DNA of 64,000 nucleotides from Thermonema rossianum DSM 10300 (lineage in GTDB: Bacteria > Bacteroidota > Bacteroidia > Cytophagales > Thermonemataceae), in NCBI RefSeq assembly GCF_000426825.1, contig NZ_AUGC01000012.1, positions 1 to 64,000 of the forward strand, given 5' to 3'. The notes under the pieces are model-generated. The model saw only the letters and a program-made list of their open reading frames with translations, had not been told where the DNA came from and searched no databases. A program made the translations under genes and the position numbers. Positions within the stretch are counted from its first letter, which is position 1; each line of letters opens with the position of its first letter. Shown here piece after piece: positions 56,601-64,000 of this stretch.

Positions 56601-57021
56601 TTTCTTTTTTGAGGAGATTATTCCGCCGGCTTACCTCCGGGAAGAAAGCAAAGCATGGTTGGTGCAAATAGCCAAGCATTTCGAAGCCGAGATTATAGCA
56701 CTCAATTACATTTTCTGCAGCGACGAATACTTACTGCAAATCAATCGACAATACCTTAACCACGATTATTATACTGACATCATCACTTTTCCCCATTCCG
56801 AAAGCCACCTGTTCATAGAGGGCGATGCCTTCATTTCTATAGAACGAATCGAAGACAATGCCCAAACATTAAATGTGTCGCCTAAAGAAGAGCTGCATAG
56901 AGTAATGGCACATGGCTTACTTCACCTGCTTGGCTTCAAAGACAAAACAGAAGAAGAAGCCGCAGAAATGCGCAAGATGGAGGATTGGGCGCTGTCACTG
57001 CGTGTTCCACGTGGAACATAA
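56587..57021 (+). CDS. ybeY: rRNA maturation endoribonuclease YbeY
   Basis: A 144-residue metal-dependent RNase for 16S rRNA 3' maturation and ribosome quality control. The zinc motif reads AHGLLHLLGFKDKTEEE, with His109 and His113; the third canonical His is an Asp (residue 119), which I recall as common in Bacteroidota YbeY. The last codons, coding RVPRGT, lie in a parS-like palindrome at 57003-57018. It starts inside the RsbW-like gene. Confidence 0.93.
   Translation: MDNINFFFEEIIPPAYLREESKAWLVQIAKHFEAEIIALNYIFCSDEYLLQINRQYLNHDYYTDIITFPHSESHLFIEGDAFISIERIEDNAQTLNVSPKEELHRVMAHGLLHLLGFKDKTEEEAAEMRKMEDWALSLRVPRGT
57003..57018. other. parS site 1 (ParB-binding palindrome)
   Basis: TGTTCCACGTGGAACA is a perfect 16-bp palindrome that differs at one position from the B. 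subtilis parS consensus TGTTCCACGTGAAACA. It coincides with the end of ybeY, so the site is also coding. The second copy is 180 bp away. Confidence 0.85.
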
Positions 57022-57197: not shown

Positions 57198-57213
57198 TGT
57201 TCCACGTGAAACA
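57198..57213. other. parS site 2 (ParB-binding sequence)
   Basis: TGTTCCACGTGAAACA is identical to the well-known parS consensus of B. subtilis. It lies in the leader between the putative mnmG promoter and its ATG, so ParB binding could affect mnmG transcription. Confidence 0.9.
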
Positions 57214-60506: not shown

Positions 60507-61280
60507 ATGAAAAAGAATCAAAAGACAAAAGTTATTTCCATAGTCAATCAAAAAGGCGGAACAGGCAAAACCACCACGGCAGTCAATCTGGCAAAAGCCT
60601 TGGAATTGCTTGGATACAAAGTCTTGCTTGTCGATTTTGACCCACAAGGCAGCCTCTCCTATTACCTCGATATAGAAGATGCAAGCCCCAACATAGCCGA
60701 TGTGCTTCTTGGCGAAGCCAACATAGAAGATGCGCTGCTTCAGGTCAGCGGCATGCACGTGTTGCCATCCAATACGGAACTTGCCGACTTGGAAATTTCC
60801 TTAGCCAATTACGATGCAAGGGAGTCTTTATTAAAAGAGTATTTGAGCCGCATCCAAGAAAACTACGATTATATTATTATCGACTGCTCGCCTTCGCTTT
60901 CCTTGCTCACAGTCAATGCCTTGGTGGCCTCTCATCATATTATCATCCCTATTCCGATGGAAGTATTGAGTTTTCACGGGCTGCACCTGATTAAAGACAC
61001 CGTGCAGGCGGTGAAAGAAACGCTCAATCCTTCACTCAACATCCTGGGCATTTTGGTTGTGAAATATTCACCTGTACGCCGTATCACCACCCAACTACTG
61101 ACTGCTATACAAGAAGAGTTTTCCGATACGCTTACGTTTAAAACCAAAATACGTCTGGATACCCGCCTCATAGAATCACCGGCCTATGGGAACAATATTT
61201 TTGAAACCGCCCCCAATTCAAAAGGCGCAGAAGATTATCTGGATTTTGCAAAAGAAATCATTCAGCTCACAAAAAAATAA
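60507..61280 (+). CDS. parA: ParA/Soj-type partitioning ATPase
   Basis: A 257-residue deviant-Walker-A ATPase that positions plasmid or chromosome origins on the nucleoid. Walker A is KGGTGKTTT at residues 16-24 with the signature Lys; the DFDPQG switch and DCSPSLSLLTVNAL are also typical. The usual chromosomal order is parA-parB, but no parB follows; the next gene is a lipoprotein 31 bp later. It lies between the parS sites (3.3 kb upstream) and the proposed origin (1.7 kb downstream), so a role in origin segregation is likely. Confidence 0.95.
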   Translation: MKKNQKTKVISIVNQKGGTGKTTTAVNLAKALELLGYKVLLVDFDPQGSLSYYLDIEDASPNIADVLLGEANIEDALLQVSGMHVLPSNTELADLEISLANYDARESLLKEYLSRIQENYDYIIIDCSPSLSLLTVNALVASHHIIIPIPMEVLSFHGLHLIKDTVQAVKETLNPSLNILGILVVKYSPVRRITTQLLTAIQEEFSDTLTFKTKIRLDTRLIESPAYGNNIFETAPNSKGAEDYLDFAKEIIQLTKK

Positions 61281-61311: not shown

Positions 61312-62910
61312 ATGCAAGCAAGTCGTTGGTTTTGCTCTGCGATGCTTACCGGCATCGGTTTATTGCTATTGTGCCGTTGTGCCAACCCCGGAGCCCTCAC
61401 CGGCGGTCCTAAAGACACCATACCGCCGCAAGTGGTTAAAAGAATACCACCGCTCGGACAAACAAACTTCAAATCACAAGAAGTAAGCATTACCTTCAAC
61501 GAGCCCGTACGCAGCAAGAACCTTCAGCAAGAACTTATCATCACGCCACGACTGCAAGAAAAAGACGCTTATGAAATCATAGAAAAGAAATACAGCATCA
61601 TTTTACGCTTCAAAAAACCACTTTTGGAAAACACAACCTACAGCATCCACTTCCGGAACGGCATAGTAGATGCCACGGAAGGCAACGCCGCCCAAGAAGC
61701 CATGATTGTGTTCAGTACGGGCGCCCAATTGGACTCCCTGCAAGTAGGTGGAACATGCACGCAGGCACTCAGTGGTGAAAGCATCGAAAACGCCCTGGTA
61801 GGACTTTACCCCGCTCATGACAGCATAGACCCCGCCCTGCATGAACCTCTATATCTGACAAAAACCAACAACAAGGGGCAGTTTCGCTTGCAATTTGTGA
61901 AAGCGGGCAGCTATCAACTGTTTGCCATCGATGACCAAAACAACAACGGCAAATGGGACAAAACGGAACTATTGGGCTTTTTGCCCGAAGCTCTTTCGTT
62001 GCAAAACTCTATAGATAGCCTTCACATAGAACTGGTACCACAAGACGTAAAAGCGCCCCAAATAGTCGGCAAGCGCGCCTCCGGACAATATGCCTATACA
62101 GTCATTACCTTTAATGAAGGAATCGACTCCTGCCACTTACAACCCGCTTTGCCCTTCGTGCTCGACAAATCGGGCCGCATATTAAAGCTGTATCATCGCG
62201 ACAGCCTCGAAGTGCAAATCACGGCAAGAGATTCAACAGGCAACCTGCTGCACGATACCTTGCAGTTGGCGGCGCCCCAAGGAAAAGAAAAAGAAAAATT
62301 TGAAGTGGATATTAGCGAAAGCTACCAAGCCTATACACAAGAACTACAATTGAAAATACATGCCAATAAACCCATTGCCCGGCAAATCGATAGTCTGTTC
62401 TATGCTTACATAGACCAAGATACGCTGAATAAGCAATTGTTTGCCCGGGCGTATTTTCAACAGCCAACCCCCAACCGGCTGGTATTCAAACAAAAAATTG
62501 ATTTTCGCGACAGTGCCAAAATATTCATCGACAAAGGTTGGCTCATCTCTATAGAAGAGGACAGCAGCCAAACCCAATGGAGCAAAAAAGTGAATCACGC
62601 CAACCCTAAAGAGTTCGCTACCCTGCGGCTCTACATAGAAAAAAAAGAAGGTGAGCGCTGGATTATGCAGCTGCTCAACAAAGAAAATAAAGTAATCCAA
62701 GAGCACAAAGTGGGTAGTGAACCTATCGAAATAAAAGGACTTCCCCCCGGTGAGTACAAACTCCGTTTTTTTCAAGACAGCAACGCCAACGGACGGTGGG
62801 ATAGTGGCAACTACAAAGAGAAAATTTTACATGAAAAAATATTCATATATAACAAAGCCCTTCGTTTAAAAGCCAATTGGGAAGTAGAAGAGCGTCTCGT
62901 CATAGAGTAG
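61312..62910 (+). CDS. Ig-like-domain lipoprotein (Big_5-like)
   Basis: A 532-residue lipoprotein (lipobox about residues 17-23, LLLCRC) common in Bacteroidota. The first domain is Ig-like (VSITFNEPVRSKNLQQELIITP) and further all-beta domains follow. Two calcium-binding-like loops, DDQNNNGKWD and DSNANGRWD, appear in the middle and near the end. It is probably an outer-membrane surface protein of unknown role. It is the last complete gene before the origin region. Confidence 0.86.
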   Translation: MQASRWFCSAMLTGIGLLLLCRCANPGALTGGPKDTIPPQVVKRIPPLGQTNFKSQEVSITFNEPVRSKNLQQELIITPRLQEKDAYEIIEKKYSIILRFKKPLLENTTYSIHFRNGIVDATEGNAAQEAMIVFSTGAQLDSLQVGGTCTQALSGESIENALVGLYPAHDSIDPALHEPLYLTKTNNKGQFRLQFVKAGSYQLFAIDDQNNNGKWDKTELLGFLPEALSLQNSIDSLHIELVPQDVKAPQIVGKRASGQYAYTVITFNEGIDSCHLQPALPFVLDKSGRILKLYHRDSLEVQITARDSTGNLLHDTLQLAAPQGKEKEKFEVDISESYQAYTQELQLKIHANKPIARQIDSLFYAYIDQDTLNKQLFARAYFQQPTPNRLVFKQKIDFRDSAKIFIDKGWLISIEEDSSQTQWSKKVNHANPKEFATLRLYIEKKEGERWIMQLLNKENKVIQEHKVGSEPIEIKGLPPGEYKLRFFQDSNANGRWDSGNYKEKILHEKIFIYNKALRLKANWEVEERLVIE

Positions 62911-62942
62911 TTGAATTCTTTGAAAAGTACAATAAAGCTAAA

Positions 62943-63357
62943 TGTGGATAACGCCCGTTTGCAGGGAAAAGTTATCCACATTTGCTTCTAAAGCTGTGGA
63001 TAACTCCCGTTTTTTTGTGGATAAGTATGTGGATAACTCGAGCACTTATCCACATTTAAAAAAAATTTGTGGATAACTTTTTCCACACTCAAAAAGTTAT
63101 CCACAGTCCACTGAAGTTATCCACAAGTTATCCACAGCTAAAGCCCACTTATCCACAGAGTTATCCACATTTACACATAAAACAAAAGTAAGATGTGGAT
63201 ATGTGGATAACAGTTATCCACAATGTGGATAACTATATTTAACTAATTGATTGTCAGCAAAAAAGTTATCCACACCCCTGTGGATAACTCATGTGGAAAA
63301 CTTTTTAAAAATAGTACTTTACAAATATTTTTTTCGTTCGTCGAATACTTATCCACA
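62943..63357. repeat. Array of 18 exact DnaA boxes
   Basis: TTATCCACA on the + strand starts at 62972, 63046, 63097, 63117, 63128, 63149, 63161, 63214, 63266 and 63349. On the minus strand the boxes occupy 62943-62951, 62995-63003, 63016-63024, 63028-63036, 63068-63076, 63202-63210, 63224-63232 and 63279-63287. One-mismatch variants lie at 63079-63087, 63194-63202 and 63292-63300. Orientation is mixed. Two more exact boxes (63670-63678 and 63844-63852) sit inside the downstream coding sequence. Confidence 0.97.
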
Positions 63358-63360
63358 TTT

Positions 63361-63420
63361 TTTGCGCCTATAACAATAACAATAGAGAATTAAATTTTTA
63401 TTAAAAATTATTGTTATTAG
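63361..63420. other. A/T-rich duplex-unwinding-element candidate
   Basis: Directly after the last DnaA box comes TGCGCC and then an almost pure A/T segment. It contains a perfect 10-bp inverted repeat: AATAACAATA at 63375-63384 and TATTGTTATT at 63409-63418. The order box, G/C-rich hexamer, A/T-rich triplets resembles the basal unwinding unit described for Bacillus oriC (box, G/C-rich patch, DnaA-trio). Functional assignment is inference. Confidence 0.65.
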
Positions 63421-63484
63421 TAGAAAAACAGGGCTTGCACATTTCAAAAAAAATCGTTATATACTATAAGCCTGAAAGTAGTGT

Positions 63485-64000
63485 ATGGAAAAAATACAAA
63501 AAATCAAGTGGATAACTTTTCTGCTGTTGAGCCTATCCACCAACTTGTGTGCACAAATCAATGTCAACTTATCATTGGCAAGAGAATACTTCCAAAAGGG
63601 TGAGTGTGACAAAGCCATTACCGAATACGAAAATATTATCAAAGAAGCCCCGGAATATTTTTTGGTGGTTTATCCACAATACAAAGAGTGTTTGTGGAAA
63701 AGTCGCTCTTGGAAGGACTTGGAAAAACTGATTGAAAAGGCAGCAAAAGAAGCCCCCGACAATCCCGCTTATAAAATAGACCTGCTGAGCTTTTACGAAG
63801 AGCAAGGCGAAAAACGCAAGGCAGAGAAGACTTATCAACAGCTTGTGGATAAGTTTGCCGCTTCTTATGAACAGGCCGTGGGCGTTGTGCATTGGCTTAT
63901 GGAAAAGCAGCAATGGGCGTGGGCGAAGGCTTTCATCAAAGAAGCGCGGCGGCGTTTATATGAATATGCCTTTGCCATAGAGATGGCCGAAATTTATGCT
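63485..64000 (+). CDS. Exported TPR-repeat protein (partial at window end)
   Basis: The open frame from the ATG at 63485 runs to the window edge, giving 172 codons. The N-terminus is a signal peptide (core WITFLLLSLSTNLCAQ). The body has helical TPR-like units such as REYFQKGECDKAITEYENII and YQQLVDKFAASYEQ. It would be an envelope protein. It is the first gene after the proposed origin and carries two exact DnaA boxes within its coding sequence. The 3' end is missing, so its length is unknown. Confidence 0.85.
   Translation, partial: MEKIQKIKWITFLLLSLSTNLCAQINVNLSLAREYFQKGECDKAITEYENIIKEAPEYFLVVYPQYKECLWKSRSWKDLEKLIEKAAKEAPDNPAYKIDLLSFYEEQGEKRKAEKTYQQLVDKFAASYEQAVGVVHWLMEKQQWAWAKAFIKEARRRLYEYAFAIEMAEIYA

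Follow-up and report, generated by a model that had tools for sequence, protein, structure and literature searches.

Genes and DnaA boxes at the locus

The window analysed here is a stretch of 64,000 nucleotides taken from one contig (C11) of the present genome (G000; assembly of 2.95 Mb in 24 contigs, 97.5%-complete). Near its right end, between the end of a Big_5 gene at 62910 and the start of a TPR gene at 63485 in the list of open reading frames, lies a gap without any open reading frame of at least 90 aa (Table 1). The first-pass annotation had described a gene-free stretch holding 18 exact DnaA boxes, ten forward and eight reverse, in about 415 bp, and both the stretch and the count were reproduced. 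The order Big_5, boxes, TPR was the same in the same-genus genome G001 and in G002, whereas in G005 the TPR gene sits between mnmG and the boxes.

Table 1. Features of the locus (window coordinates unless stated otherwise).
Feature	Position	Strand	Remarks
parS site TGTTCCACGTGGAACA	57003..57018	.	End of ybeY; exact match to the parS pattern
parS site TGTTCCACGTGAAACA	57198..57213	.	Just upstream of mnmG; exact match to the parS pattern
Left neighbour, Big_5 + DUF2141 protein gene	61312..62910	+	Pfam; neighbour kept in G001 and G002
Gap (predicted oriC)	62911..63484	.	574 bp, 68% AT; ORF list, composition, skew minimum at 63,380
DnaA-box array	62943..63357	.	18 exact TTATCCACA (10 +, 8 -) in 415 bp, plus three one-mismatch boxes
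Element-proximal box	63349..63357	+	Points into the AT-rich element
Putative DNA unwinding element	63358..63422	.	Holds the skew minimum; overlaps the most AT-rich 60 bp
Triplet array TAA-CAA-TAA-CAA-TAG	63371..63385	+	On the TTATCCACA strand; polarity opposite to that of published DnaA-trios
Facing triplet array	63408..63422	-	Reads TAC-TAA-TAA-CAA-TAA; four triplets at 63408-63419 counted
Right neighbour, TPR-repeat protein gene	63485..64000, on to 65305 in the contig	+	Pfam; orthologue adjoins a box-rich interval in many relatives

The one-mismatch boxes of the array start at 63079, 63194 and 63292. The window as a whole contains 21 exact copies of TTATCCACA, whereas 100 shuffles of the window averaged 0.40 and never exceeded 2. 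The assembly has 56 exact boxes, 21 of them at 62.9-64.7 kb of the present contig; the reversed control pattern occurs 24 times. A second cluster of boxes, which had been named beforehand as evidence against an origin at this place, was searched for in the 97.5%-complete assembly; no other cluster of exact boxes was found, and elsewhere there are at most two exact boxes per 2 kb. The TPR coding sequence itself contains three exact boxes, at 63670 and 63844 of the window and at 64615 of the contig, and all three have counterparts in G001.

All 18 boxes of the array are retained in order and strand in G001, which has one extra box. When the gap, extended by 16 bp into the TPR gene, was aligned with G001, 162 of 162 box columns were identical; outside the boxes 333 of 432 columns matched. 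Box positions follow a period of 10.5 bp (Rayleigh p = 0.0005 for the + boxes and 0.017 for the - boxes), and in a scan of periods from 9 to 13 the + boxes fitted best at 10.5 in G000, G001 and G002 and at 10.45 in G359; G000 and G001 are closely related, so that their phasing results are not independent. The 10.5-bp phase was absent from the boxes of G005 and G043 and was weak in those of G052.

The density of boxes had been called unusual, which held within the phylum sample and failed against near relatives. Among 296 phylum genomes, G000 included, G000 leads with seven close pairs of same-strand boxes, followed by a genome with four, whereas among 58 relatives nine such pairs were counted in G001, eight in G052 and seven in G002. 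The number of exact boxes is 19 in 416 bp in G001, 19 in 453 bp in G002 and 24 in G359 over a longer span (761 bp), and studied origins contain 5 to 19 boxes according to a review (PMC4285127); the array of G000 therefore marks the upper end of the known range and is not a different thing. It is distinguished less by the number of its boxes than by their fidelity: the family members G004, G006 and G007 have 2 to 5 exact boxes and 12 to 17 within one mismatch. In G045 (L079) no exact TTATCCACA was found, and its 15 one-mismatch boxes, mostly TTATTCACA by eye, may reflect a change of box preference. High growth temperature as the cause of perfect boxes was considered and was not supported. For G000, G001 and G002 the IVYWREL index gave about 58-62 C, and the pattern was broken by G007, with an index of 59 (from 8,036 residues only) yet three exact boxes, and by G005, with an index of 28 yet 13.

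Skew, parS sites and the TPR gene as origin markers

The cumulative GC skew of the 109,779-bp contig reaches its minimum at 63,380 and then rises, the GC skew being -0.045 to the left of the minimum and +0.033 to the right of it. A skew minimum at the boxes had been proposed as a check on the origin; it was obtained at the level of the contig and again in G001, where the lowest point of a 60-kb stretch, at 920,118, falls within the box array. In G002, G005 and G011 the minimum of a 60-80 kb stretch was located away from the box cluster, and skew therefore supports oriC only within the genus. In G002 (L041 2865-2895) three exact boxes follow one another in tandem at intervals of 11 bp, about 1.4 kb from the 60-kb skew minimum.

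The only exact parS matches in the assembly are the two at 57,003 and 57,198, about 6 kb from the boxes, and the reversed control gave none; once one mismatch was tolerated, 2 + 2 matches turned up for the reversed pattern too, and only the exact search discriminates. G001 and G005 likewise have two parS matches each close to the beginning of mnmG, and none was found in the examined stretches of G002, G003, G004, G006 and G007. As in other parABS origin domains, parS lies near oriC and a parA-parB pair is encoded elsewhere in the genome; here, by contrast, there are just two exact parS sites, by mnmG, and a ParA on the oriC side without a ParB on the contig. This ParA-like ATPase is encoded at 60507-61280, close to oriC, and no match to it was found between Big_5 and mnmG in G002. 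It was considered as the partner of the parS sites and rejected: the sole ParB_N match above the cut-off is encoded on C6 immediately after the ParA that belongs to it, and the oriC-side ParA therefore looks extra. A weaker ParB_N match, below the cut-off, lies on C12.

The statement of the first-pass annotation that dnaA is not adjacent was borne out, the gene being on another contig (C2:216874); its product contains all three Pfam DnaA domains, the helix-turn-helix among them. DciA is encoded on contig C2 as well.

The TPR gene was followed through the order with a search built on an alignment of seven TPR proteins, which gave a match, in some cases weak, in 112 of 118 genomes. From these 118 genomes 90 TPR loci were examined, 28 genomes being left out, and boxes with at most one mismatch were counted upstream of the gene over 700 bp (29 best loci) or 800 bp (60 further loci). 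At least eight boxes were present beside the gene at 36 of the 90 loci, among them G000 and all eight family genomes; the 36 comprise 21 of the 29 best-match loci, G003 and 14 of the 60 further loci. Fewer than eight were counted at the other 54, of which 37 have 0 to 2 (eight best-match and 29 further loci). Downstream of the gene at least eight boxes were found at one of the 29 best-match loci. In G353 (L076) the TPR gene has exact boxes both upstream (eight within 700 bp) and downstream (seven), as in a split origin.

With the skew minimum, the nearby parS pair and the full conservation of the boxes in G001, the earlier reading of 62911-63484 as the chromosomal oriC is supported, and it is assigned a probability of about 0.97. 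Such an oriC would be ordinary in kind. Like the single-interval origins of E. coli and Streptomyces it combines a box array and an AT-rich element within a single intergenic gap, and its box consensus equals the E. coli consensus TTATCCACA; it differs from them in its 18 perfect and three near-perfect boxes and in having dnaA on another contig. It would give the Bacteroidota a precisely placed origin; among the matches listed in a literature search, no title reported an experimentally mapped origin from this phylum. The box array also offers a clean natural substrate for studies of DnaA assembly, because 18 of its 21 sites are perfect and the sites are helically phased.

The AT-rich element and its triplet arrays

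In 62801-63600 the most AT-rich 60 bp (88% AT) start at 63369, 12 bp past the last box, and the box-proximal end of the putative unwinding element includes the sequence GCGCC at 63364-63368 (TCGCC in G001). In E. coli, box R1 likewise points into the AT-rich element. Within the element of G000 one triplet array lies on each strand, and the two face each other across a gap of 22 bp.

The arrays were compared with sequence shuffles. In the eight family genomes both exceeded 500 of 500 shuffles (means of 4.88 for the box-side and 3.50 for the far array; shuffle maxima of 2.12 and 1.88), and the corresponding mirror-strand sets were not enriched, 448 and 384 of the 500 shuffles reaching them. At 13 non-family loci the box-side array again exceeded 500 of 500 shuffles; the far array was not enriched there (reached by 103 of 500). 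The triplet sets had been picked after inspection of these first loci (eight family and 13 other) and were therefore tested on the 60 further loci, of which the 14 with at least eight boxes gave a box-side array above 500 of 500 shuffles (mean 2.5, shuffle maximum 1.64) and a far array without enrichment (reached by 152 of 500). The looser last-box pattern used in the triplet tests moved the window of G006. The loci are related, so that the triplet counts are not independent. The reversed arrays, paired in the family, are a fact of the sequence; judged from these comparisons, the inverted second array holds as a family-only trait.

Both sets of loci were then combined with a slightly wider box pattern, by which the values of G048, G017 and G351 shift relative to the 14-locus test. 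Runs of at least three triplets of the set TAA/TAG/CAA/CAG follow 18 of 35 gene-proximal boxes, G000 included, and none of 286 other boxes in these 35 loci (0/182 other + boxes and 0/104 exact - boxes); the control drops + boxes at most 40 bp from the last box and takes only exact - boxes. The opposite-strand set gave a run of three at one of the 35 gene-proximal boxes. G353 was dropped from the 8 + 13 and 35-locus counts because its nearest 'box' is spurious, and it enters the 22-locus test described below. A palindromic element was tried as a general rule and rejected. When the best inverted repeat was compared with dinucleotide shuffles at 22 loci, p fell below 0.05 only in G007 (0.005) and G000 (0.035); in this test the window of G006 began at the wrong box.

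The basal unwinding system (BUS) of B. subtilis is described as a DnaA-box, a GC-rich spacer and DnaA-trios (PMC8287927, PMC6669920). G000 shares the succession of a box, a GC-rich spacer and A-centred triplets (TAA, TAG), and differs from that description in that its box-side triplets are placed 3' of the box and on the box strand. Published DnaA-trios are given as 3'-GAT-5' (5'-TAG-3') on the '5'-tail' adjoining the boxes (PMC8287927) and those of B. subtilis lie on the bottom strand (PMC10201434); in H. pylori the trios are reported as 5'-CTA-3' on the complementary strand, and reversal of their polarity stopped opening (PMC8235120). With the published BUS rule (at least three NAN trios within at most 16 nt, the box at the 3' side) a run of just two was found at box 63349 and at its G001 counterpart, and a loose form of the rule selects boxes 62943, 63194 and 63202. 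A relaxed NTN rule of the published polarity was enriched over 22 loci (mean 3.41, compared with 2.23 in shuffles) because AAT repeats satisfy both polarities; as (AAT)n conforms to this rule, the polarity is ambiguous in many relatives. At box 63349 the NTN reading gives only 2 in G000 and in G001, and the arrays of these two genomes contain CAA, which breaks the ambiguity there. The Thermotoga maritima unwinding element is reported to consist of TTATT, an eTrio and a DnaA-trio (PMC10316083). It has TTATT-like and TAG/TAA motifs adjoining the last box in common with G000, although its motifs are apparently on one (upper) strand, as far as described in PMC10316083, and those of G000 form arrays on opposite strands next to E. 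coli-type boxes. The layout of the unwinding element is possibly new, and among the matches listed no title concerned paired or reversed trios.

Proposed mechanism and competing readings

From these features we infer the following course of initiation. DnaA would bind the 18 perfect and three near-perfect boxes, whose helical phase would align two opposed sets of DnaA molecules. Box 63349 would steer the DnaA complex into 63358-63422, where the DNA is predicted to open, and DnaA would then grip single-stranded TAA/CAA/TAG triplets and the helicase would be loaded, DciA being the likely helper in this step. ParB, acting on the parS pair 6 kb away, would separate the copies.

It is considered very improbable that the cluster instead titrates DnaA or acts as a control site while the true origin is at another place. 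datA is a DnaA-titration site and serves as the model for this reading. So many perfect boxes could soak up DnaA, and three further exact boxes in the TPR gene have G001 counterparts, but the contig skew minimum at 63,380, the proximity of both exact parS sites, the AT-rich element and triplet array adjoining the last box and the lack of any other exact-box cluster in the assembly all argue for an origin. With the origin at this locus, unwinding might also begin at its left edge (62911-62942), from the outward-pointing box 62943. In the flank of this box five T-centred triplets (six in G001) have the published polarity, and the permissive rule (spacer of at most 16, at least three NAN) returns a run of 5 with a spacer of 6 in G000 and a run of 6 with a spacer of 3 in G001. 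This start is nevertheless judged unlikely: the left edge is just 32 bp from the coding region, the AT-richest stretch and the skew minimum are both at the right edge, and none of the 104 exact - boxes in the 35 loci carries at least three triplets of either of two trio-like sets.

A weightier objection, held to be a serious possibility though somewhat short of an even chance, is that DnaA ignores the triplet array and that this is merely easy-melting AT-rich DNA of period 3, in which case its strand and polarity would be meaningless. The fit of (AAT)n to the relaxed NTN rule (3.41 against 2.23, 22 loci) and the 17 of 35 gene-proximal boxes without a run of three are in keeping with this objection. 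It is at odds with the restriction of runs of at least three to gene-proximal boxes (18/35, compared with 0/286 other boxes and 1/35 for the opposite-strand set), with the repetition of the enrichment in 14 further loci (0/500 shuffles) and with the CAA triplets that break the AAT ambiguity in the G000 and G001 arrays.

Use of the arrays by DnaA is accordingly framed as a hypothesis, and the general form of it is offered tentatively, with more doubt than confidence: in this order (within the Bacteroidota, perhaps the Cytophagales) DnaA might open the origin on the strand opposite to that used in B. subtilis by capturing box-strand TAA/CAA/TAG triplets located 3' of the last box, and the facing arrays of the family could seat two filaments and two helicases. 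Since these arrays lie on opposite strands, one short element could hold a DnaA filament and a helicase on each strand. Should the reversed triplets prove functional, the idea of a single common bacterial unwinding layout would have to admit a second polarity, and two-helicase loading could be tested on one 65-bp element; the two-array layout, if true, may be a built-in answer to the loading of the second helicase. In G359 (L103) an AT-rich element has inward-pointing boxes and, by eye, near-mirror CTA/TAG triplets on either side of it, a two-sided origin layout.
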